DNA of 64,000 bases. Source: Cladocopium goreaui (lineage: Eukaryota > Sar > Dinophyceae > Suessiales > Symbiodiniaceae). The DNA is taken from NCBI GenBank assembly GCA_947184155.2, contig CAMXCT020000324.1, positions 629,501 through 693,500 of the forward strand, given 5' to 3'. The notes below the pieces were generated by a model, which had not been told where the DNA came from, searched no databases, and saw only the letters and a list, made by a program, of their open reading frames with translations. Position 1 is the first letter of the stretch; every line of letters starts with the position of its first letter. The position numbers and the translations under genes are program-made. Below, in pieces: positions 1,723 to 60,765 of this stretch.

Positions 1723-2781
1723 TCAAGTTCCAAACCGTTGCAAACACTAGGCAAATGGTACCAGCCAAGAAATCCAAAAAAAAATCCCAAACCTGTTCAA
1801 AAAAAAAATCCTAAAACTATTTCACACCCCTACAATGTGCAAGAACCTCACATAGCAGCTTGTGAAGGCTGTGGGACGGTCCTCATTCCTGAAGATGCGC
1901 CATGTTTTGAGAGTTTGATCAAGTGACAGGTGGGTTTGCCCGAGATTTGGAACTTTTTTGTCGATTGGATGAAGGTTCTTGCATCGCATTTGCCTGCGGT
2001 GAGCATTTGGTTGTGCACCACTTGGTTTCTTTATAATTGTATGTGTCTTTGTGCATCTTGTGCAAGTTTAGAAATGTCACCCACTGAGCAAAACTGCAAG
2101 ATGGATCACACTCGCTGACCAACTGGCTGGGTCTAGTGCGAAGATTCTCTGAACTTCGCCAGGCCAACTCACCTGACCAGCTCTTCTCATTCGCCCTGCG
2201 GGTGTAAAATGGTGAGAACTGAGCTGTGCAAAGAAATGTGCAGCTAGGAAGGGTATATGGAAGGGTTATGGTTGGTGCAAGATGGAGTCATCAATGCTTA
2301 GTCAACAGATTAGAAACTTCTAATATTCGTGAGATGCTTGACTTGTCACTTGTACCATGAAGTATCGCAAAGAGATGTTCAATAGGATGCCGAACTACAA
2401 TGAATTTGGCCCGTGACTTTGTCCTCGGAGTGCAAAGCTGGCAACGATGTGTCGCGCTCAGAGTTTGGAACGAATTTGATTTGAGATTTGTTTGGCAGAT
2501 GTGTGGAGCCTGCAGATTGCAACCATTCGGAGAAATACTGTAGCGGGCAGTGTATGTCTGTCACACCTCGATATTTCCATTGGCCGTCATTTGCAGACGA
2601 ATTGTTAGCAGAAACATGTGTCAGCATAGAACCCTGTAGGGTTCTTTCCTGTGGCTGTTTCTTGTTGAAACGCTGCTTTAAGTCAACTAGGTCAACCAGA
2701 TGCTCAGAGGTTACCAATCACAGAGTATGTGCCGGAGGCATTTTTACATTTTCAAGGAACGAGCGTTCCGGTGTCCAGGGA

Positions 2782-3872
2782 ATGTGCCGACAAACTGTAG
2801 GGTCTGTAGAGTCTGTAGAGATCGAGGAAGAGTTGTTGGAGTTCAAGTTGATCGAACGATTGACGTTCCTGGAATACCTTCCGGTGAAGGCAGGCGTTCG
2901 CAAGTCCTCCAGCAGCCCAGAGCTCACCGCTCTGGAGTTCGATCCTCGCTCGACAAGTACAGGACCTGCCCAGAAAGAAACCTGGGGCCGGCAGGCCAGT
3001 GTCAGCACCGATCGTTCCTCTGGTGCCACCTGGAATCGGCAGGTGAGTGCCACCACCGTTTGTTCCTCCAGTGCCACCTGGAGTCGACAGGAAAGTGCAG
3101 ACATCAGATGTTTGACATTCCACGACACTTTGGTCAGTGCTGCTTCCACGAAGTCTGACAACTCGGATCCCATCGCGACAGACTTCGCCGATCTTGCGAT
3201 TCCTGAGACTGGATCGAGCGGATCAGAGCTTGGTGCAGGTCAATGGTCAGTGGGATCAGCCCTGCATTCGCAGGGCGATTGCAAACCTTGTGCGTAGACC
3301 CTTCTCGCTTGATGACTTGCATGATGGACTGAAATGGACTGAAGTTGAGGGTTTTCCATTTGTGTGAGATTTCCAATGCTTTTCATGTTTTTTCTCCATG
3401 GTTACGGTGCCTTTGATATAAAATGATAAACATCTGTTTGGTCCGTATAGCTGTGATGCTTCAGGGTTGATCCAGCCCAACAAACTTGTGATGACATTTG
3501 AGATGCCCGAATGTGTTGATCTATGTCGATCTATTGTGGTCGCTACCCACTCGCCAGGTGGTTTTGGCGGCCGGGCGGCTGCACTCGAGGTGAATCATGT
3601 CACTGGATTTCCTGAAGTTTTTTTCCCGTTACGTTCCCTATTTTTCCCTTTAGTCAAGCCAACATTTCGGGAATCTGCTGGGAAAGATGGGAAAGGGGTT
3701 GTGTGTGTGTGTGTCTTTTTTCAATGATTTTTTACTATTTCTTTTGGGCCCTCTTCTGCAAATCCAAGGTCAGCATTGTCACTTGTGTCCTCGAGGTGCC
3801 TTGCAGAAGAGGAAGCGGCAGAATCGCGAGTTGCTGAAGGCATTGCGCAAAAGCATGGTGGCAACTCCGTGA
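2782..3872 (+). CDS. CCCH/CHLCP zinc-finger family protein, copy A (three exons)
   Basis: Three exons are joined as 2782-3293, 3558-3598 and 3769-3872. Both introns are GT-AG (264 and 170 bp) and keep the frame. The first exon carries an acidic N-terminal motif (LLEFKLIERLTFLEYLP) followed by a Ser-rich patch (RKSSSSPEL) and a 16-residue tandem repeat. The zinc finger is split by both introns: CKPC in exon 1, WFWRPGGCTRGES in exon 2, CQHCHLCP in exon 3, giving C-x8-C-x5-C-x3-H spacing. A basic tail (KRKRQNRELLKALRK) ends the protein. From family knowledge, this CCCH plus CHLCP pattern is common in dinoflagellate proteomes and suggests RNA binding, but the function is unproven. The start is chosen at the ATG nearest the conserved motif; the frame is open upstream to 2488, so a longer N-terminus is possible. 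Confidence 0.72.
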
Positions 3873-5318: not shown

Positions 5319-8221
5319 CCATGTGAGGTACGGCCGATGGTTCTTCGAGTTGAGCGATACGCAGGCATGCCAATACATGTCCCATGAAACGCCTGGTGAC
5401 GCCTGGTGACGCCTGGTGACGCCTGGTGACGCCTGCTGACTTCGAGCCATGCCACCGTGGACCTGTTTGATGTGCAAGAACCTCACATAGCAGCTTGTGA
5501 AGGCTGTGAGACGGTCCTCATCCCTGAAGATGCGCCATGTTTTGAGAGTTTGATCAAGTGACAGGTGGGCTTGCCCGAGATTTGGAACTTTTTTGTCGAT
5601 TGGATGAAGGTTCTTGCATCGCATTTGCCTGCGGTGAGCATTAGGTTGTGCACCACTTGGTTTCTTTATAATTGTATGTGTCTTTGTGCATCTTGTGCAA
5701 GTTTAGACATGTCACCCACTGAGCAAAACTGCAAGATGGATCACACTCGCTGACCAACTGGCTGGGTCTAGTGCGAAGATTCTCTGAACTTCGCCAGGCC
5801 AACTCACCTGACCAGCTCTTCTCATTCGCCCTGCGGGTGTAAAATGGTGAGAACTGAGCTGTGCAAAGAAATGTGCAGCTAGGAAGGGTATATGGAAGGG
5901 TTATGGTTGGTGCAAGATGGAGTCATCAATGCTTAGTCAACAGATTAGAAACTTCTAATATTCGTGAGATGCTTGACTTGTCACTTGTACCATGAAGTAT
6001 CGCAAAGAGATGTTCAATAGGATGCCGAACTACAATGAATTTGGCCCGTGACTTTGTCCTCGGAGTGCAAAGCTGGCAACGATGTGTCGCGCTCAGAGTT
6101 TGGAACGAATTTGATTTGAGATTTGTTTGGCAGATGTGTGGGGCCTGCAGATTGCAACCATTCGGAGAAATACTGTGGCGGGCAGTGTATGTCTGTCACA
6201 CCTCGATATTTCCATTGGCCGTCATTTGCAGACGAATTGTTAGCAGAAACATGTGTCAGCATAGAACCCTGTAGGGTTCTTTCCTGTGGCTGTTTCTTGT
6301 TGAAACGCTGCTTTAAGTCAACTAGGTCAACCAGATGCTCAGAGGTTACCAATCACAGAGTATGTGCCGGAGGCATTTTTACATTTTCAAGGAACGAGCG
6401 TTCCGGTGTCCAGGGAATGTGCCGACAAACTGTAGGGTCTGTAGAGTCTGTAGAGATCGAGGAAGAGTTGTTGGAGTTCAAGTTGATCGAACGATTGACG
6501 TTCCTGGAATACCTTCCGGTGAAGGCAGGCGTTCGCAAGTCCTCCAGCAGCCCAGAGCTCACCGCTCTGGAGTTCGATCCTCACTCGACAAGTACAAGAC
6601 CTGCCCAGAAAGAAACCTGGGGCCGGCAGGTGAGTGCCACCACCGTTTGTTCCTCCAGTGCCACCTGGAGTCGACAGGAAAGTGCAGACATCAGATGTTT
6701 GACATTCCACGACACTTTGGTCAATGCTGCTTCCGCGAAGTCTGACAACTCGGATCCCATCGCGACAGACTTCGCCGATCTTGCGATTCCTGAGACTGGA
6801 TCGAGCGGATCAGAGCTTGGTGCAGGTCAATGGTCAGTGGGATCAGCCCTGCATTCGCAGGGCGATTGCAAACCTTGTGCGTAGACCCTTCTCGCTTGAT
6901 GACTTGCATGATGGACTGAAATGGACTGAGGTTGAGGGTTTTCCATTTGTGTGAGATTTCCAATGCTTTTCATGTTTTTTCTCCATGGTTACGGTGCCTT
7001 TGATATAAAATGATAAACATCTGTTTGGTCCGTATAGCTGTGATGCTTCAGGGTTGATCCAGCGCCGTCCAACAAACTTGTGATGACATTTGAGATGCCC
7101 GAATGTGTTGATCTATGTCGATCTATTGTGGTCGCTACCCACTCGCCAGGTGGTTTTGGCGGCCGGGCGGTTGCACTCGAGGTGAATCATGTCACTGGAT
7201 TTCCTGAAGTTTTTTTCCCGTTACGTTCCCTATTTTTCCCGTTAGTCAAGCCAACATTTCGGGAATCTACTGGGAAAGGGGCTGTGATTTTGTTTAATGT
7301 TTTTTTACATTTTTTTACTGTTTCTTTTGGGCCCTCTTCTGCAAATCCAAGGTCAGCATTGTCACTTGTGTCCTCGAGGTGCCTTGCAGAAGAGGAAGCG
7401 GCAGAATCGCCAGTTGCTGAAGGCATTGCGCAAAAGCACGGTGGCAACTCCGTGAAGTTTGGGTACTGAAAATGAGGGACCCTCAAATTTCGAAAGGCCC
7501 TGTGGCCACTCCACTCCATAGCCTTCTGATCGTGCAGCTTGAGCGAAGGTGATCCTTGCTGCACGACTTTGTACGCCAAAACATCATGTTTCACGTTGTT
7601 GCACGTAAGCACATGAATGTTTCATGATGATATGTGTTTGGGTGACACTGCTCAACTGCACGGTCAAGGCTTGGCAGTGACACGTACAGGTCTTCCAGCA
7701 CGGACTCGGGACGCACAACTAGTTTGCGTGGCAGAATTGTGCGACATCTTGCTACTGTTCTCCGCTGGACAGACAACTCTTGCGAACTTAACTGGTCTAG
7801 ATGCAAGATTATGCATGGAATTGTAGAATTGTATATAAGCATCCTTTGGGATGGCTCACGTTTGAACCATCAAAATAGATCAAAATAGTGAATGTCCGAG
7901 AGCATATGTTTTGAACCGTCTCTTGGACAGACACAGTAATTCAAAATTCGTTGCCACCTGTGACAACCCTTGGTGAGGCAGCGGGGTTGTCCATTGTATA
8001 GTCAGCGACACCGTGCCCAAAGTTGGAGGACTGCAGCCTCTCTACTCTGCCTCTATTTTTGGTGGTAAAAAGTGTGGCAACGCCTTGCTGTGGGGTGATT
8101 GAGATGGTACAAATTGGTAGGAAAAACGAGAGAGAGAGAGTAAGAGTAGTGACCGCATGCGGGGCTCCTGGGCCTGGCTGCTGAGGCCCCATGTGGTGGC
8201 CAGTGGCTGGCTTGGCGCTCA
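5319..8221. repeat. Duplication copy B
   Basis: Positions 5319-5470 match 1-152 and 5471-8221 match 1836-5063, with no low-complexity insertion between them. Copy B is thus the uninterrupted version of the unit. Similarity to copy A ends at cttggcgctca near 8221. Confidence 0.92.
6417..7455 (+). CDS. CCCH/CHLCP zinc-finger family protein, copy B (three exons)
   Basis: Same gene as copy A with exons 6417-6880, 7150-7190 and 7352-7455. The introns are GT-AG (269 and 161 bp) at identical positions. The protein has the LLEFKLIERLTFLEYLP motif, the RKSSSSPEL patch, the split finger (CKPC, WFWRPGGCTRGES, CQHCHLCP) and the basic tail. It lacks one 16-residue unit (48 bp) of the Trp-containing tandem repeat seen in copy A. 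The few substitutions (for example Glu to Gln in the tail) leave all cysteines and the finger histidine intact, so both copies look functional. The start is uncertain for the same reason as in copy A. Confidence 0.72.
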
Positions 8222-16935: not shown

Positions 16936-19900
16936 ATGATGATCACAGGCGCCAGTGGAGCACTGCCTCTAGAGATTCTGCAGCCAGTCTTGGAGTCTCT
17001 GGGATCTTCCTTGGCCAGTGCTATACCTTGCTGTCGCAGCATCGCCTCAGCAGCAGAACAAGGCTCGTCCAGTTCAGGATCAGAGTTGAATAGCAGGATT
17101 TTTCGACTATTACGCTGTGACTACAATGCATATTACATTATGTTATATTACAATATGTATATATATATATTTATTTGTTTATTTACAATGATAGTTAAAT
17201 TAACATTGTTTATTGACATGCGCCTCTAGATTTGAGAACCGTTGCAAATCCGAACAAGCAGACGGCGCTGCTGTGGGTGATCTGTGGGTGTCTGTGTTGT
17301 CAGGTGACGCTGCTGCTTTCAGACCGATGACGTTGTGCAAATCAACTCCAAGTCCTGGAGATGGCACTGACATCCAGCATGAGCTCCTCGAGATCCCAAG
17401 TCTCTGAGTGGAACAGCTAAATGTCAGTATAATTATACATAATATTGGCATATCTTGGCATAATAATGATTAATAATGCGTACTACAAAAAAAAGACTCA
17501 GTTCAGAATGCAAGCGTCGGGTCCTATGGAATCTATGGACGCTTTGAAGAGTTCCAACCTTTTTCAGAATGGTTTTGCAATTCCCCAGGCTCAGCCGCTG
17601 TGGAAACGTGGCCCGAATGCGACGACCAGACTTGAGCTGGAGAGAGATAGCCCAGGTGAGGTGTGCTGTTGATGTTCATCATTTTTACCTGGCTGGTACG
17701 ACATATGCATCATATGCTTAATTATGCTTATATAATGTGATAATAATTATTTATTTACATATATATATATATTTATTTATTTACATATATATATATGTAT
17801 GTATATAGTTCCGCATTCATTTCATGAGGCGATGGTCCATGGTGACCAGGGCGCTTGGAAGCCTGTGCCTTTGACGGGGGCAGTTCCATCGCATCGCCAG
17901 TCCCTGGCTCTGTGTGGTGCACCGGGACGGATCCCTGGCGCATCGTCAGGTCATGGGGTGCCGCATGGGTTTCCATCAATGGGGTTCTTGAATATAAATC
18001 AATGGTTATATAATGGGTTATAATGGGTTATATTGGGATCAATATCCCCATTAAAAGTGATTGAGTATATTGAGTGGTTGAAAGAGATGGTGTAATTGAA
18101 ACACCAAACAAGAGTGATCGAAGGTGAATGGTTGGGTGGCCACATGATTGGCTGAGTGAGCGAGTGATCCGCTGATTGAGCAAGTTGCCTGATGTCCGGG
18201 TCCCAGTATTGCATTGTAGGAAGCTGTGCCCACAAAGTCTTGAAGCAACATGAAGCAACTGTGGGATCAGGTAACATCAGGAATGCATAGCGTCAGGACT
18301 AACTTGAAATGTAAGAAGCACAGCATAGCACAGCTATGCGGCAGCTCTTCCAATTCTACAAGCACCATGAAGCACCCAAAGATCCTGTGCACGACTATCC
18401 CAGAGGCCGCAAACGCTGTCGCAGCCTTGAGGTTGGTTGGAAACATAGTTTTGTCCATATGCATTCTTTTGGTTCGTTATGTGAGGCGCACCATGGCGCA
18501 CCCTTGTGCCAATAATTAGAATCCGGTAGCTGGCACACGCTTTGTTTCTGCATGACAAAAACCCTTTAACTTCAAAAGCCAGCACGCAGCACGCTCATTG
18601 CTTCCCCAGCTTCTACATAAATAGCTGAGTGAAGCTGCTACAGCAGGTTTAGTTCACGTAAGCCGCTTTTGTTCGTATATATATATATATTGTTTCAGCG
18701 CAGCTTGGCTCAGAGTTGTTCCGATTTTTTTTGTGGAATAGTTTTGACCATTTTCCCAGACTTGCATTGGAGGGCTTCAATTTTGGGCCCACACAGTATT
18801 CAAGCCGCACAGTATTTCAGCCCAGTGATACTATGGGTTTGTCCAGTATAGCGGTATACCAATGGTAGAGCATGGTACAGCCCTATGTTGATTGTTTGTT
18901 TTGTCAATGAACATTGCCCATGAAATGAAACCCACGAAGGAGGATGTGTCTGACAGGATATCTTCAATCAGTTCCCTGGTGTCACATGATTTAACCTTAT
19001 TTTAGCTGGTCCATCCGAGGAGCGAGAAAGTGGTACTCTACGGCGGCAACACGTCCCGACGAGTGGCTGGCAATTGGCAGCTGGGCATTTTCAAAGATAC
19101 TCACAACGTTGAAGTGTTTGATGGAACTAGCATGGATAGGTTGACCGTGCTTGATCGGATCAAGCACACACACACATATATATATATATATAATATCCTG
19201 GTTGCAATTTCCTCTACAGAATCGAGGGGGCTGACACCCCCAAAACCTTCGATTCTGTAGAGCCAGCCTGCACCCCTACTTTGCTGCAAAATCAAGGACC
19301 ATGGGCTGGTAAACACCCAAAAATCACCCATTTTGGGCTGCACCCCTGTCCGGTCCTGATTCTGTAGTGGGGTCCCATGAAGGGTTTTCAAAATCTTATG
19401 CTTTGGGAAGGAGATTGATTTTGTAGAAAAAGGCTGGTGACCTCCTAAGGCCTTTGATTTTGTAGCAAAAGCATGCTCCTGGGTGTCATATCTTCAGATC
19501 TTGATTCTGTAGTGGTGAGAGATGGTGAGAGGGAAGGACCTTGATTCTGTAAAGGCTAGTTCCCCTGAAACCCCTGTTGCCCAACATGTATGGGTTTTTG
19601 ATTTTGTAGAGGGAGGTTAGATGTGAAAAATGCCGGTTGGTCTTCAATACCAGGGGTAGCCTTTGCAGTAGGAAAGGTTTATGTGGCAGGCTACCGTGGC
19701 CTTTACAAAATCATACACCAAGGTGTCACCCTCTACAAAATCAAACTCCAAGGGGGAACCAAAGATTGGCCTCTACAAAATCAAGGTTCTATTTTATGAG
19801 CTCCAGGGTCCTGGGTTTCTGGAATTTTGACGATGCCCCCGGCATTCCTGAGATTTTTGCTCTAAGAATCTTTAAGGGCCTACTTATCATGAGAAAACCC

Positions 19901-20523
19901 TCAAAAGTTTTTATATACTGTAGGATTTCAGAAGGATTTTTGCTTGAGATCTTAGAGCCTGATTTTGTAGAGCAGATGTAGGGGGCCCACTTGTGAAAAG
20001 GTGAGACTTTGATTTTGTAGAGCGACCTATCTGAAGAAAACCTAGCCAGTTTGATTTTGTAGAGAACATATGAGAAAAAGGTGGCAAAATCAAAAAGCAG
20101 GCACTTGGGAGGGGCTTGTAGCTACAAAATGAAAGGCAGGCACTTGGGACTTTGGATGGGGCTTGTAAAACTTGTAACACATTCATACTACAAAATCAAA
20201 GACCAACAAAAAATATCTACAGAATCGACTCCAAAAAACATATCTACAGAACCAACCTGGACGTTTGAGCTCAAAAAGTGATGATTTTTGATGCCTTCAA
20301 ATGTGAGGTTCTTGATTTTGTAGCACGTATGAATCTGCCTTGTCAGAATTTTCTACTGTGGAAGGTTCTTGATTTTGTCGAATGAACGATCCTACTCTGG
20401 AGAGCAGAGATTGATTTAGTAATGAATTTTTAGGTACCTGACCTTGGTTGGGGGTCTCTACAGAATCGAGGGATCCAGCACCCCCCTATTTGCAAGGGGG
20501 ATCACATATATATATATATACAC

Positions 20524-20554
<31 letters not shown>

Positions 20555-20581
20555 GTTATACATATATATATATGTATATAC

Positions 20582-20616
<35 letters not shown>

Positions 20617-23390
20617 TGCATATATATATATATTCACAGTTATACATATATATATAGTTACATATATATATATATATACATCATATCTTTTTTTTGCGAT
20701 GTTTCCCCATGGTCAGGCAGCCATCCCGAGCTCTTTGTATTGCTGACTTGCCTTCAGCAAGTGGTGCTGCCCCTTGGTGAGCGCATTCCTTTCACAGAAA
20801 GCATTCCGAGAACATAATGAACAGGCACAGCGAGAAGGAGAGATGGGACAGAAGGTGCAAAAATGAGACAATCAGCAGCAGATCTCAGTGTTTTCCCTCA
20901 CATGGAGGGGCGTCTTGTGACCTACGAGGGCACATGAGGGCCAGATGAGTGTTGGTGTAGACTATATACCTAGCCAGAACATGCCGGAACCATCCGGAAC
21001 CATTTTCTGCTCACACTCATCACGTAGAAATAGGCCCACATGGGCCACATGGGTCAAGGTTAACTTCACCTCATTGGACAACATCAATGGGCAGCCATGG
21101 CCAAGCGCAAGATGGGGAGCAACATTGACACAGACAACTGCTGGAGCATTGCTTTGGGGCGGGTGGAGCCGTGCCTATCCTGCAAAGTGACAGTGGGTAG
21201 CAGGTGACCGAGGTGTGGACTGGGATGTTGTCAACGGATGTCAACGGATGTCAACGGATGTCAACGGGAGTTGGGTCACGAGGTTCGGATTGCAAAGCTT
21301 GCAGCTGGAAGAAACGCCCATTTTGCCAGTATCCATCCGCGTCCATGTTCGCATCCCTGATTTTGTACATTTTGTGCTTTTGGTCTGGGGCCTGGATTCG
21401 GACACATCCTTTGTCCCTAGCATCCAAGCCTGCCAAGGAGAAAACAATGCAAATGCCTGGATACTGCAGTTTCGCGAGTCATGCCCTGACTGGAAGCAGT
21501 TGCCTGTGGTGGAGGGTCCATCGCCCACAGCATTTCATACCGCAACAGGCTGGATGCCAAAGCCCTCGTTGAAACCGACCTAATTTGCCCCACAAATGCG
21601 GGGCAGGGCAGGGCAGGGCTCCTTAATCGAGCCTTTGCCATATCTCGAGGAGTCAACTAGTATAGAGAGAGAGAACGAGAGAATCAAGGAGCAATTCTTC
21701 AATGAGGCCAGGAAAAGAGGGAGCTTTTTCGGGTGTTTTAGGTGGCAGACATATGCCTAATGAAGCGGCATGATCCTGAGAGATTCTGAGAGCCAACCCG
21801 GTCGAGTCCCAGTCTAGAAGCGTGTGCTAAAAAAACCGTTCAGTCATTGAAAACAGCAAACGAAGTGCCGCAATTTTGATCAATTTTGGCCCTGCAGGCT
21901 TGCCTGATGGAAAGCGTGTGGCTGTCGTGGGCGGGCTTGGAGATGGCAGTTCACATGATGGAGTGTCTTGAGTCTTGAGCGATCACAAAGGGAGAAAATG
22001 TGGGTAGATGATGGTAAATGTAAACTTTCAATGATTCCTGTAATGCTCTTCCAGCACTGATAAGCAGTGATTTTTTCTTGGCCATGACGTTCACTCACGT
22101 ACTTGTATCTAACGTTTGGAGTAGTATAGACGGGTTTGCACGGCACAAAGGTACCGACTCCTTGGACAAAGCTCTTCCTTGTTGTATGGTTCTAGCACGA
22201 TAGGCGTCCCACTGGTGGCCCCGCAAAATGTTGCTTCACTAACAGCGGTTTTCTTGCATTGTCCCAACCAAGAGATATCTCAGTCGGCAGACAGTAGGAA
22301 TATATGTGCATATATATATATATACATATAGATAGATTAGATTAGATTAGATTAGATTAGATTATATAGATTGGATCAGATCAGATCAGATTAGATTAGA
22401 TTAGATTATTTAGATTAGATTATATTATATTAGATTAGATATGATTAGATATGATTAGATTAGATTAGATTAGATTAGATAGGTAGATAGATAGAATGAA
22501 TATGTATGAAGGTGATTGAATATGTGCACCCACAGGTGTCGTGGTCCAAGACTGGGATGCCTTGAGGTTTGGGCCTTTCAGTCTGACACCGGAGGATGGC
22601 AGAAGCTCTGCGAGGGCGGTCCTGCACCAGCAGGTCACGTCGCTGCGGTGGATCACGACTCCCAGCGCTTGCTGCTTTGCTTCAGCGTCAACCGATCTCC
22701 GCCAGGAACCTAGGGACGTCCACAGACCATTTGGACCATTTTTGGACATGGTGACATGACAAAAGAAATATCATGAATCATCAGATGGTTGATCCAGCTA
22801 CTGTCACACATTGTCACACTGCTTTGCTGGTGAAACTGCGTGCTTAGCTCAAAGCTGGCAAACATGATGGCCTGCCGCCAAGGGACTCGCTGAATGGGGA
22901 TAGCTTCCTTGAGACCATGAATGTTCTGGACTTGCGCACGGGCCGATGGGACAACCCATGGAAGGATAGGGAGCAAGTTTGCAAGCCTGGCGCCCGTCGG
23001 AATCCAGCAGGTGTGACTCTTGGCCGTCACTTCATCATCTCCGGTGGTTACAGTGAAGAACAGTTTGCCACCCTCGGCGACACGTGGGCCTTTGACATGA
23101 GAAGGGGTACCTTGCCTTCTACTAGGCCAAATGTTTGTGGTTTTATGATGTATCAGTTTCACATAGTTTCATGCTTTTTTTTGATCTTCCAAGTTCTTTG
23201 CAACATTTTGGCACCATTCTCATTCGTTTCCGATTTTTTGTGCTGCACATCGCCTGAGGCACCTGGAAACTGATCGACTACAAAGGTGCACCACAAGTAG
23301 AAGGCCACAAAGCCATTGCCAGTGGTTTGGACATCTTCACCTTCGGTGGGCACAAGTTGCTGGGGAGGTTCGAGGGACAAGACGTGGCAG
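16936..23390 (+). CDS. F-box-like and kelch-repeat protein, about a dozen exons
   Basis: The first exon (from ATG 16936) has an F-box-like helix pattern, [16 protein letters not shown] then [14 protein letters not shown]. Exons that follow by content are 17230-17407, about 17550-17660, 17815-17970, 18338-18430 ([15 protein letters not shown]), 19006-19139 (KVVLYGG then NVEVFDG), 21058-21188 ([19 protein letters not shown]), 21430-21560 ([20 protein letters not shown]), 21898-21960 ([14 protein letters not shown]), 22539-22711 ([14 protein letters not shown]), 22860-23105 ([21 protein letters not shown]) and 23252-23350 ([18 protein letters not shown]). The recurring GG doublets, the W spaced after them and the P-x-x-R/GH motifs are kelch beta-propeller blades. 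F-box-kelch proteins usually select substrates for SCF ubiquitin ligases. Most borders are approximate; 19006-19139 is firm. Confidence 0.6.
19212..20472. repeat. Dispersed two-orientation TTGATTTTGTAGAG motif block
   Basis: About two dozen copies of ttgattttgtagag or its complement ctctacaaaatcaa (with ttgattctgtag variants) are spaced irregularly at 20-180 bp. Forward examples lie at 19453, 19541, 19597, 20008, 20050 and 20311; reverse examples at 19701, 19731, 19771, 20187 and 20215. The block begins and ends with the same ctctacagaatcgaggg followed by a CACCCCC tract. The text between motifs is not repeated. It sits in the kelch intron that starts at 19140. Confidence 0.85.
20502..20684. 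repeat. (AT)n/(catata)n microsatellite
   Basis: Alternating catatatata blocks, directly after the TTGATTTTGTAG block and in the same intron. The open frames (Tyr/Ile repeats) are artefacts. Confidence 0.95.
21228..21270. repeat. 11-bp tandem repeat (gtcaacggat)
   Basis: Four units of tgtcaacggatg type lie between two kelch exons, thus probably within an intron. Confidence 0.8.
22310..22495. repeat. gatta/agatt tandem repeat in kelch intron
   Basis: Tandem gatta, gatca and gatat 5-bp units run just upstream of the exon at 22539. No coding signal. Confidence 0.9.
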
Positions 23391-27898: not shown

Positions 27899-30055
27899 GG
27901 TCCCTGACTGTGCTGACTCGTCCCAAACGGCCGAGGTTTGATCACGACTCCCTGTTGGGCCCCGTCTTGTTTCAAATTCGCATCTCCTCGGAGACAAGGG
28001 TTCACTTCACATGGCATCGCTTCAACGCGTTCAAACACTTGGCAGAGTATCTGCGACATCACTTCCCAGAGCTTCCAAGTTTGCAGCCTGCAGGCTGTGC
28101 ATATATTGGGGATGCTATGGAATGCCATGGAATGCCATGAGTGTGATAGGTTGAGAGAAAATGACTCAAGGAAATGATGCGGACGCCTGACCAAAAATAT
28201 CAAAAATGTGTTCACCCGGTTGCGTCCCACAGATGATGATGACAATGGACCATGGATTGAAATGGAGAAACATGGTAAATAAATAAATATAAATATATAT
28301 ATATGTGTAAAGGTAAAGGTACTCAGACTATCCTGAACTCAGATTCTTGTGGGATGTCCAGGGAACTAAGCCCCGCGCCACTACGATCCCCTCGGTGTTG
28401 CCGGACATCGATGAAAATCGGTGCAGGCCATGTGTGGGAGAGAGCTGTGCGGGTGGTGAACTACTCGGCTTTCCTCAAGGAGCGGCAGCAAACCTTGACC
28501 GCCTTCCTGTATGCAGCGCTGACGATGGATCCAAAAGTGGAGGACCGGGATGAACTTAGTCTGGAGCTTTGCAATAGATGTTCAGTTGTTTTGCTCATGA
28601 TCTGGCCATGGAAGCTTTGTGGATGATGCACATGCAAATGCAAATGAACATGATCATGATCATGATCATGATCATGATGATCCCGGCGGAAGGGAAACCG
28701 CGCGAGCGTTTTGATTGGTTGCTTCCAGGAGAGTCACAATCACCTGTAATTTACAATATAAAATGCTCTTCCGCTCAGTTTGGATAACTGAATTTGGGTT
28801 AAAAAAAGTGGATGCAAAACTCATTGATTTTTAACAAATCCAGGTAAACATCATGTGCATCAGACGTAGTAAACGATCCCAGAGATCTCAGCAGCGTAGC
28901 AACATGTCACGTAGTAAACGATCCCAGAGATCTCAGCAGCGTAGCAACATGTAACGTAGTAAAAGATCCCAGAGATCTCAGCAGCGTAGCAACCTGTAAC
29001 GTAGTAAAAGATCCCAGAGACCTCAGCAGCGTAGCAACATGTCACGTAGTAAGAAAGTCCCAAGGATCTCAGCAGCGTAGCAACATGTAACGTAGGAAAC
29101 TATCTCAGAGATACCAGCAGCGTAGCAACATGTAACGTAGTAAAGGATCCCAGAGATCTTAGCAACATCGCAATATATCCTGTACGAAGTACGAGGAACG
29201 TTAACATGCCCCCCCTCCCCACCCCACCCCAACCCCAACCCACACTAACACGGCAATATATCCTGTACGAAGTACGAGGAACGTTAACATGCCCCCCCAC
29301 CCCACCCCACCCCGACCCCAACCCACACTAGAGATCTCAGCAGCGTAGCAACACGTAACGTAGTAAAAGATCCCAGAGATCTTAGCAACATGGCAATATA
29401 TCATGTACGAAGTACAAGGAACGTTAACATGCCCCCCCACCCCACCCCACCCCACCCCAACCCCAAGACAAAGAGCAATACTCAAAAAAGAAGCAAAACG
29501 CACGTACGGTTTTCCTGCCGTAGGCATGATGATGATGATGATGATGATGATGGTGATGGTGATGGTGATGGTGATGGTGGTGGTGATGATGATGATGATG
29601 ATGATGATGCTGATGCTGATGCTGATGCTGATGCTGCTGATGCTGATGCCGATGCCGGTAATCAGTCTTCCAAGTCTTGCAACCCCGTCCCCTTCTCTTT
29701 AACATCTTTAACGTGGTTTACATGTGGGATATACTTTGCCCAAGGGTTGGAGATGGATGGAGTGCAAGCAGAGTTGCTGTGCTTTTGCGAGGATGTTCTT
29801 CTCAGAGAGTTTTTGAACATTCCCCGGGAGCCCGACTTGACGAGGAAAGGCCCATTTGGCGCTTGGAACATGTTGGCATGACCTAGGAGACCTGCCATAT
29901 CCTGCTAGCCTGAGATGGCGATCTGGTTGGCTGTGATCATGTCTGATCTCTATTCAAACTGCCCAGGACAGCCACGGAGGAGATCCGCACAGAGGCCATC
30001 TCAGGGCGCCCGCGGAAGTGCTCCAGTGCTGACCCCCGGCTGCACATGGCTCGAT
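27899..30055 (+). CDS. PX-domain protein (phosphoinositide binding), partial gene
   Basis: The exon from about 27899 to 28087 begins SLTVLTRPKRPRFDHDS and continues with GPVLFQIRISSETRVHFTWH, RFNAFKHLAEYL and RHHFPELPSL. This is the first half of a PX domain, where the Arg-x-Phe in the third strand contacts phosphoinositide. A short acidic exon (28234-28271, GPWIEMEKH) and an exon near 28362-28570 (AFLKERQQTLTAFLYAAL) supply the C-terminal helices, and 29740-29875 (CEDVLLREFLNIPREPDL) ends the domain. A further tract at 29968-30050 (TATEEIRTEAISGRPRKCSS) follows. PX proteins are recruited to endosomal membranes. Two frames compete at 28370-28450, and the joins there are not settled. A large satellite sits in the intron before the last PX exon. 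Confidence 0.55.
28864..29165. repeat. 45-bp satellite (acgtagtaaacgatcccaga unit), about 6.7 copies
   Basis: Unit starts are spaced exactly 45 bp (28864, 28909 and so on). The unit contains gatcccagagatctcagc and gcgtagcaacatgtaacg. Copies differ by one to six bases, with cctcagcagc and taccagcagc variants. The - strand frame stays open as a Tyr/Ala/Glu repeat because 45 is divisible by three. It lies inside a PX gene intron. Confidence 0.92.
29166..29465. repeat. Composite repeat: satellite piece plus C-rich tract
   Basis: Three copies of a roughly 90-bp block with ggcaatatatcctgtacgaa, then gtacgaggaacgttaacatg, then a CCCCACCCCACCCC tract. A remnant of the 45-bp unit is interposed between the second and third copies (about 29330-29390). 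The C-rich strand could form quadruplex or i-motif structures. Confidence 0.85.
29526..29658. repeat. (gat)n, (ggt) and (gct) trinucleotide repeat
   Basis: A continuous trinucleotide array drifts from atg to gtg to atgctg. The Asp/Ala and His frames are open but lie between satellite DNA and the last PX exon, so they are probably intronic. Confidence 0.92.
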
Positions 30056-30059
30056 GTGG

Positions 30060-30870
30060 CTGGATTAGAGTAGTTGATAAATGTTGATAACTCATGAGCA
30101 ATTCATGCTAGGCAGTATATATTCATGGTAATTCCAACCAGCATCCACAAACATTCCTCCAACATCTGACAATTCCATACAATTCCATCCAATTCCACCA
30201 ACATGCTCCAACAAGCGATTCTGTTCATTTTTGTCACGGCGAAAGTGCAGTAGTCATGTAAGTCACCAGTCGAGAGCAAAGTACCATTGAGTCCAGGCAT
30301 GACCGTCGGCAGTTTTCCATGCGCAATATCGCAAGATGGAAACATATTTTTTCTGAGTTCCCTTGATGTTGCTGCAGTTGCCTCAGGACAAATTCGTTGA
30401 ATCACATCGAGATAGACAGAGATTTTCCACTGGAGGTTGGATGGGAGGTGATGCAGCGCCTCAAGTCATGGAGCAGTAATGGTCATGCTGAGGGATGTTG
30501 CAGACACAAGTAGTGATGGCAATGAAAGCTGCAAGATTCCAGACCTGTTTTGTGGGAGCCTTGTTAGAGCCGAACACAAGATGCAAGAATGAATGCTCTC
30601 ATCGTGTTGGGCCAAGTTCAACTCCTTTCTTGTCACTATATATTTTCACTATTGACTTGATGCAAACATGCAACTCATTGCAACTCTCACTTTCGAAGGA
30701 GATTTTCGGATCGACAGTGAGCTTGACTTTGACTCAAGTGACTTGTTTTGCAAGGCCGTGATATGACGGGCGTCCTACACTCACACTTGGACCTAAAGGA
30801 GGAACAACACGCACAAACTATCTATATAGAATCTAGACTTTGTCATGACGTGAGTTCCTGAGGCCCCCGC
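30060..30870. other. No supported gene
   Basis: Unique A/T-rich sequence between the last PX-linked tract and the first tract linked to the TBC exons. It holds short open frames only, on both strands. It may be an intron if the PX and TBC exons belong to one gene. Confidence 0.35.
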
Positions 30871-59184: not shown

Positions 59185-60765
59185 AAAGGAATGGAGTTAA
59201 GAAAGGGTTTTGTTTTTTTTTTCACTCCCAAAAGTTGGTGCTCACAATAGAGTACCATCCAGACAATTATATTATTGAGTAACTGAGCCACTCATGAGGT
59301 ACCCCCTTGAAAAATTGTCTGTGATGTTTTTTAATAAGGGTTTAATAAGGCATCTAATTATTTGGTAAACCTTGCATTTTAAAGCTTTAACACAAATATG
59401 GCTTTCTAAAGTAAAGGGACCAGCTTTACCCAAAGAAAGGTGGAGAAAGGGTTTTGGTTTTTTTTCACTCCCAAAAGTTGGTGCTCACAATAGAGTACCA
59501 TCCAGACAATTATATTATTGAGTAACTGAGCCACTCATGAGGTACCCCCTTGAAAAATTGTTTGGGTGTTGTTTTTCAATAAGGGTTTAATAAGGCATCT
59601 GATTATTTGGGAAACCTTGCATTTTAAAGCTTTAACACAAACATGGCTTTCTAAAGTAAAGGGACCAGCTTTACCCAAAGAAAGGTGGAGAAAGGGTTTT
59701 GATTTTTTTCACTCCCAAAAGTTGGTGCTCACAATAGAGTACCATCCAGACAATTATATTATTGAGTAACTGAGCCACTCATGAGGTACCCCCTTGAAAA
59801 ATTGTCTGAGTGCTGTTTTTTAATAAGGGTTTAATAAGGCATCTGATTATTTGGGAAACCTTGCATTTTAAAATTTTAACACAACTATGGCTTTCTAAAG
59901 TGAAAGGACCAGCTTTACCCAAAGAAAGGTGGAGAAAGGGTTTTGTTTTTTTTTTACTCCCAAAAGTTGGTGCTCACAATAGAGTACCATCCAAACAATT
60001 ATATTATTGAGTAACTGGGCCACTCATGAGGTACCCCTTTGAAAAATTGTCTGGATGCTGTTTTTTAATAAGGGTTTAATAAGGCATCTAATTATTTGGA
60101 AAACCTTGCATTTTAAAGCTTTAACACAACTATGGCTTTCTAAAGTGAAAGGGCCAGCTTTACCCAAAGAAAGGTGGAGAAAGGGTTTTGCTTTTTTTTC
60201 ACTCCAAAAAGTTGGTGCTCACAATAGAGTACCATCCAAACAATTATATTATTGAGTAACTGAGCCACTCATGAGGTATCCCCTTGAAAAATTGTCTAGG
60301 TACTGTTTTTTAATAAGGGTTTAATAAGGCATCTAATTATTTGGAAAACCTTGCATTTTAAGCTTTAGCATAAATATGGCTTTCTAAAGTAAAAGGACCA
60401 GCTTTACCCAAAGAAAGGTGGAGAAAGGTTTTTTTGTTCACTCCCAAAAGTTGGTGCTCACAATAGAGTACCATCCAAACAATTATATTATTGAGTAACT
60501 GAGCCACTCATGAGGTACCCCCTTGAAAAATTGTCTGGATGTTGTTTTTTAATAAGGGTTTAATAAGGCATCTAATTATTTGGGAAACCTTGCATTTTAA
60601 AGCTTTAACACAAATATAGCTTTCTAAAGTAAAGGCACCAGCTTTACCCAAAGAAAGGTGGAGAAAGGGTTTTGTTTTTTTTTTCACTCCCAAAAGTTGG
60701 TGCTCACAATAGAGTACAGAGTACCATCCAGACAATTATATTATTAAGTAACTGAGCCACTCATA
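59185..60765. repeat. 244-bp satellite, about 6.5 head-to-tail copies
   Basis: The landmark gtgctcacaatagagtacca recurs with spacing 243, 244, 245, 245, 239 and 246 bp (first near 59238, last near 60700). Each unit carries taataagggtttaataaggc, tttacccaaagaaaggtgga, a T-tract of variable length, and gagccactcatgaggtaccc. Copies are over 90% alike by eye. Most length change is in the T-tract; the last copy has a small duplication (gagtacagagtacc). A partial diverged copy (ctcacaatagggtaccatcc) lies at about 61098-61117. Open frames of 66-67 codons recur in some copies, but the period is not a multiple of three. Confidence 0.95.

Follow-up and report, generated by a model that had tools for sequence, protein, structure and literature searches.

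The two-orientation motif block in the window (the whole 64-kb stretch of Cladocopium goreaui DNA that was analysed) is very probably a non-autonomous cut-and-paste DNA transposon, lying in an apparent intron of a kelch-type gene and carrying its motifs as putative subterminal recognition sites. Alignment of its ends with those of other copies in the genome gave an element of 1308 bp, the window copy of a dispersed family referred to here as family A (Table 1). One of the readings offered in the original prediction, a mobile block with defined ends, was borne out, with both ends (19195 and 20502) placed a little outside the positions that had been proposed. The same prediction had the block bounded on both sides by the motif plus a C-rich tract; this direct repeat is real (CTCTACAGAATCGAGGG...CACCCCC, 83% over 30 nt), but the element extends 17 bp and 30 bp beyond the left and right limits drawn from it.

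Table 1. Coordinates of the window copy of family A, its parts and its immediate surroundings, numbered as in the window.
Feature	Position	Strand	Evidence or description
Family A element (dispersed non-autonomous DNA transposon), window copy	19195..20502	+	Ends lined up with genome copies and inverted; other copies flanked by 8-bp duplications
5′ terminal sequence ATCCTGGTTGCAATTTCC	19195..19212	+	Found at 67 places in the genome with no more than one mismatch; reversed control, 1
3′ terminal sequence, reads TATTTGCAAGGGGGAT on the + strand	20487..20502	-	Inverted partner of the 5′ end
First inverted motif pair, adjoins the 5′ end	19212..19262	.	CTCTACAGAATCGA ... TCGATTCTGTAGAG
Dispersed array of CTACAAAATCAA, 23 sites	19214..20469	.	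Orientations + - + ------ +++ --- ++++ --- +
Last motif and C-rich tract	20456..20485	+	Direct repeat of 19212-19241
Unit tandemly multiplied ~70 bp apart in longer copies	20121..20203	+	Several BLAST matches per locus; spacing 70 in L252 and L253
(CA)n(TA)n microsatellite, 5′ flank of the window copy	19165..19194	.	
(TA)n microsatellite, 3′ flank of the window copy	20503..20684	.	
Exon-like kelch-type frame upstream of the element, limits approximate	19006..19140	+	By-eye frame reading

The motif array and its setting

Matches to CTACAAAATCAA with two mismatches or fewer number 23 between 19193 and 20503, ten on the + strand and 13 on the - strand, whereas 50 shuffles of the same interval contained 0.24 on average and never more than three; the earlier description of about two dozen copies in both orientations was therefore accurate. 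When the whole window was searched for CTCTACAAAATCAA with up to three mismatches, 30 matches were found compared with a shuffle mean of 8.5 (largest value 16 in 100 shuffles), and 23 of these 30 loose matches lie in the block. A scan for two-orientation 10-mers in steps of 1300 bases gave 11 copies at the block and six at the next best place. The information content of the motif is limited to approximately 12-14 bases, with a weak preference beyond them.

The window copy appears to sit within a larger intron of a kelch-type gene, rather than itself constituting the intron. This placement is based on a weak match to the kelch profile PF24681 at 22848-23273 (E 4.3e-05, 23.4 bits, under the curated cut-off of 50) and on exon-like frames, judged by eye, that flank the element on both sides. 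An Rfam search returned nothing at the gathering threshold, an ARAGORN search found nothing, BLAST against phage and plasmid sequences gave no match, and the spliced-leader sequence had no match with four or fewer mismatches within the 64-kb window.

Several other repeats were seen in the window. Two closely similar long open frames (DLFGRCV...) at 2485-3297 and 6120-6884, about 3.6 kb apart, look like a duplication in which the numbers of a 48-bp repeat differ; the second frame had no Pfam match. A 245-bp unit forms a tandem array of 6.4 copies with 93% matches at 59200-60764, and an array of a 45-bp unit followed by one of an 83-bp unit, which looks unrelated to the motif block, occupies 28864-29330.

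Dispersed copies of family A

The original prediction had called for a genome-wide search for the motif. In the 1.166-Gb genome the exact motif occurs 145 times compared with nine times for a reversed control, which is above background, and many of the 100 motif places listed cluster at identical spacings. Twenty stretches were selected from the exact-motif places for comparison, and BLAST of the block region identified homologous copies in 15 of them. Matches started at 19191-19196 in six loci and stopped at 20502 in three; since most of the others overrun into AT-rich repeats of the query, the ends of the element were set by aligning terminal sequences. A DNA search with the block yielded 207 matches from the 40 candidate regions scored out of 77.

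Copies of family A vary in length, the longest one read being 3841 bp. Eleven copies carry 15-49 motif sites each (two mismatches or fewer), against shuffle means of 0.22-0.88, and the longer copies gain additional sites through the tandem unit of approximately 70 bp and, in some cases, through repetition of the left part. At the other extreme, a 201-bp form (L276) has both family A ends and a poor duplication. The duplication at L247 differs from that at L252, although the two copies match at 99.5% of positions over 1979 bp; this points to recent independent insertion. Nine frames chosen from long copies (one each in L298 and L299, five in L264 and two in L252) had no Pfam family above the cut-off, the best match being NPR3 with E 0.096. 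With inverted ends, a duplication of fixed length, dispersed copies and no transposase in the nine frames checked, family A is a non-autonomous, MITE-like TIR DNA transposon family.

The motif was also sought in contigs of other genomes, where at least 118 stretches were found, a lower bound that gives no measure of frequency; 117 of the 118 listed have a single match. Two matches were present in L057 (5062-5155), where a tandem repeat of bacterial DNA, GCGGGGCAAGCCCCGCTCTACAGAATCAAGGG, includes the motif; this was taken as a chance occurrence. The motif-pair pattern matched at least 120 stretches of viral contigs.

Terminal repeats and target-site duplications

The ends of the element are inverted, such that ATCC-TGG-TTGCAATTT faces ATCC-CCC-TTGCAATTT; the left end reads ATCCTGGTTGCAATTTCC and the right end ...CCCCAAATTGCAAGGGGGAT. 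That other blocks might share the same ends was confirmed by the genome search for the 5′ end (Table 1). Flanking sequences were scored at the 32 copies in which both ends were read, comprising 26 of family A, five of family B and one of family D (the latter two families are described below). An exact 8-bp duplication was found at 21 of the 32 and a duplication with one base off at five, compared with six exact and 32 one-off cases when flanks of different copies were paired as a control (n = 992). Two copies (L263 and L291) were two bases off and four were poor, namely L276 (4/8 bases in agreement), L256 (2/8), L300 (1/8) and the window copy. Among the 21 exact duplications, position 3 is preferentially T and position 6 preferentially A (15/21 each).

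The flanks of the window copy, TATATAAT and CACATATA, agree at four of eight bases, so that its ends are fixed by the other copies and a clean duplication is lacking at the window copy itself. The 3′ (TA)n microsatellite may have blurred its target duplication.

The set of 32 was defined by excluding several further loci with matches. L286 and L288 are probable duplicates of L267 and L285, having the same duplication, and both are exact. L248-L251 and L257 did not show both ends. L274 has the 5′ end, and the matching duplication was not found there; L273 and L289 have the 5′ end alone. Four of the 67 places with the 5′ end, L272, L277, L278 and L301, with zero or one motif and no far end, were rejected as chance; L278 does have a repeat of 8 bp at +677, but no inverted end accompanies it. 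For L269/L271, in which the 5′ end reads ATCCGGGTTGC..., neither a duplication nor a far end was found across 10.6 kb. A site at 30127 of the window with two mismatches to the 5′ end was dismissed as a further end, as it sits in a short repeat.

Families B and D and further motif clusters

Two other families have the same 5′ 18 bp as family A, with one base variable, together with an 8-bp duplication. Family B (L267, L268 and L284-L289) resembles family A chiefly in the first 27 bases (89%), the remaining matches being short and weak, and its right end reads CCCCAAATAC[CA]AAC[TC]CCGAT. The duplication was exact in all five separate insertions of family B with both ends read. Its dispersed motif is ACTACAAAA; in two copies CTACAAA was counted 11 and nine times, shuffles giving 0.2-0.3. 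Family D is represented by a single copy of 1038 bp (L275) with the duplication GGGCAAAT; here CTTACAAAA occurs 18 times with at most one mismatch, compared with a shuffle mean of 1.4 (maximum 7), mostly within a 66-bp tandem repeat. Like family A, families B and D have a dispersed motif similar to the sequence directly after the shared 5′ end; in L268 and L284 one base of the end-adjacent motif is altered. The combination of the same ends with a family-specific motif in families B and D fits a scenario in which proteins and motifs would diversify together.

Five additional loci (L258, L261, L262, L265 and L266), which were selected for holding the exact motif, cluster it at 6-13 sites (two mismatches or fewer) per 6.5-7 kb, counts that carry no shuffle comparison. 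At a threshold of 1e-8 BLAST matched none of them to the block, and none has a clear copy of the ends; look-alikes of the end with three mismatches lie at 5741 in L258 and 2591 in L265, the others being short. L258, L262, L265 and L266 are mutually related, and the five loci may represent further families. Because of these clusters, the motif cannot be regarded as confined to elements with the ends described here.

Origin of the motif array

Three other origins of the array were weighed against a transposon with recognition sites. The first is that the motif serves the host, in a regulatory or chromatin-binding array (an enhancer, matrix attachment or replication element) that a transposon later spread. 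Consistent with a host function, as well as with recognition sites of the element, nine of the ten copies aligned pairwise with the window copy were more alike at motif positions than over the remainder of the element, L252 being the exception (0.848 at motifs and 0.851 elsewhere); the sites compared were picked for matching in the window copy, a selection that favours higher motif likeness, and the ten copies include the near-identical L247, L252 and L253. The same core is also present in element families that are otherwise little alike. In families A, B and D, however, the motif variant tracks the variant adjacent to each family's own end, as would be expected of recognition by the element rather than by one fixed host factor, and a host array is accordingly regarded as quite improbable.

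A decayed minisatellite, in which the motif would be the remnant of a tandem array with diverged spacers, is rated lower still, as very improbable. Local tandem duplication does exist inside the block, at spacings of 27 bp, 30 bp and approximately 40 bp, and longer copies multiply the unit of about 70 bp. A minisatellite nevertheless predicts neither shared inverted ends, nor 8-bp duplications, nor the recurrence of one array at dozens of loci; given the shared ends and duplications it is refuted as a full explanation, and tandem growth is secondary, inside the element. The original view that the block is not a tandem repeat was upheld, the sole tandem array found inside it by TRF being a 27-bp array of 2.4 copies in an element with mobile ends.

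Least probable of all is nested insertion of very small elements that each left a motif at the end, a possibility that had been raised in the original prediction and for which the resemblance of the first 51 bp (19212-19262) to a tiny element with inverted ends and the existence of the 201-bp form can be cited, but against which the hand-read order of orientations (Table 1) lacks nested pairs, and motif order and spacing largely recur in other copies. Not only the order but also the orientation of the motifs is largely common to copies of family A. A T/C variant within the motif, shared by neighbouring sites, does exist as had been noticed; its attribution to copying within the block was not supported, since homologous sites in different copies mostly carry the same variant, which is thus mostly position-specific, and neighbours share it because the whole element was inherited.

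Search for a partner transposase

A non-autonomous cut-and-paste transposon would depend on a transposase encoded elsewhere, and matches to two transposase families were inspected. The KDZ transposase profile PF18758 has 16 matches in the genome and none in any of 14 control genomes. In 10-kb stretches around five of the 16, meant as one per group with groups judged by score and open-frame length alone, no sequence matched the ends with fewer than 4-5 mismatches, and motif arrays were absent; one of these loci, L279, has one exact CTACAAAATC. The hAT profile PF05699 has 11 matches in the genome and likewise none in the 14 control genomes, and four of the 11 loci, 5 kb each, contained neither these ends nor the motif. 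Both kinds of transposase are thus present in the genome, and among the inspected loci (5/16 and 4/11, respectively) no transposase was linked to these ends and arrays.

Other repeated motifs were observed at two of the transposase loci. In L279 (G000:C5824:110300-120299) a second kind of dispersed motif, CCTTTTGTCAAGG, occupies 9-2301, with 14 occurrences of TTTTGTCAA at one mismatch or fewer, all in one orientation; these motifs lie upstream of, and extend into, a long frame preceding the KDZ transposase frame, and part of them may be protein-coding. In L307 (G000:C3846:222700-227699), which has a hAT dimerisation match, the 9-mer GTTTAAACA or its complement occurs 37 times, and this locus is perhaps another motif-array transposon.

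Relationship to known transposons

Ac/Ds, Tag1 and Tol2 are elements of the hAT superfamily with subterminal repeats, and the usual hAT ends differ from the ATCC... ends of family A. The hAT elements make 8-bp target duplications (PMC4763223, excerpt), and a duplication of 8 bp, with the base preferences given above, is also found here. In the hAT element Herves a short subterminal motif, printed as CG/AATTCAT, is bound by the transposase (PMC3143072, excerpt), and in the Kat1 substrate a subterminal hexamer or its complement is repeated and is thought to raise transposase activity (PMC4763223, excerpt); family A similarly has a short motif inside its ends. It differs from hAT elements in that its arrays fill most of the element, with up to 49 sites at two mismatches or fewer. 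The block had been described as not an ordinary transposon; its inverted ends and the 8-bp duplications of its family make it a TIR transposon, and what stands of that description is the length of its motif arrays.

En/Spm, of the CACTA superfamily, has direct and inverted subterminal motifs that are bound by the helper TNPA and that diverge between families (PMC2613891, excerpt). The CACTA elements En/Spm and Tgmt* therefore resemble the present families in having direct and inverted subterminal motifs that are family-divergent. Membership of CACTA was ruled out, as Tgmt* has a 3-bp duplication and CACTA ends (PMC2613891, excerpt) whereas family A has an 8-bp duplication and ATCC ends. Zisupton makes 8-bp duplications (PMC12730594, excerpt), a feature that Zisupton and KDZ elements have in common with family A. 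Dinoflagellate introners, as characterized in excerpts of the literature, are likewise repeated elements in introns; the family A copy differs in appearing, from frames read by eye, inside a larger intron.

By analogy with hAT and CACTA elements, the motifs are most likely recognition sites, subterminal in position, for a trans-acting transposase or helper, a putative binding role being assigned to them because the subterminal motifs of those elements act in this way. An array of protein-binding sites, as suggested in the original prediction, is the favoured account of the motifs. In the mechanism proposed, a non-autonomous cut-and-paste element would have inserted into the apparent intron of the kelch-type gene, with its terminal repeats and subterminal motifs as cis sites. 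Another element would encode, and supply in trans, either a transposase or a DNA-binding helper that recognises CTCTACAAAATC, and the many sites in two orientations would load many protein molecules and aid pairing and excision.

A more far-reaching suggestion, offered tentatively and on balance unlikely, is that ATCC...TTGNAATTT ends, 8-bp NNTWWANN-like duplications and long arrays of motifs in both orientations together mark an undescribed superfamily of eukaryotic DNA transposons, in which the transposase would fall outside the known catalytic families and would co-evolve with family-specific arrays. In a limited set of literature on the motif sequence, Symbiodiniaceae DNA transposons and dinoflagellate MITEs or subterminal transposases, no such element was found.

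What looked like a puzzling two-way block becomes a set of transposon families whose ends and duplications can be tested and whose motifs are candidate sites for protein binding. Recent movement is indicated by the copies that are 99.5% identical and carry different duplications, and three families with the same 5′ end and different motifs would provide a natural experiment on the diversification of recognition sites and transposases.
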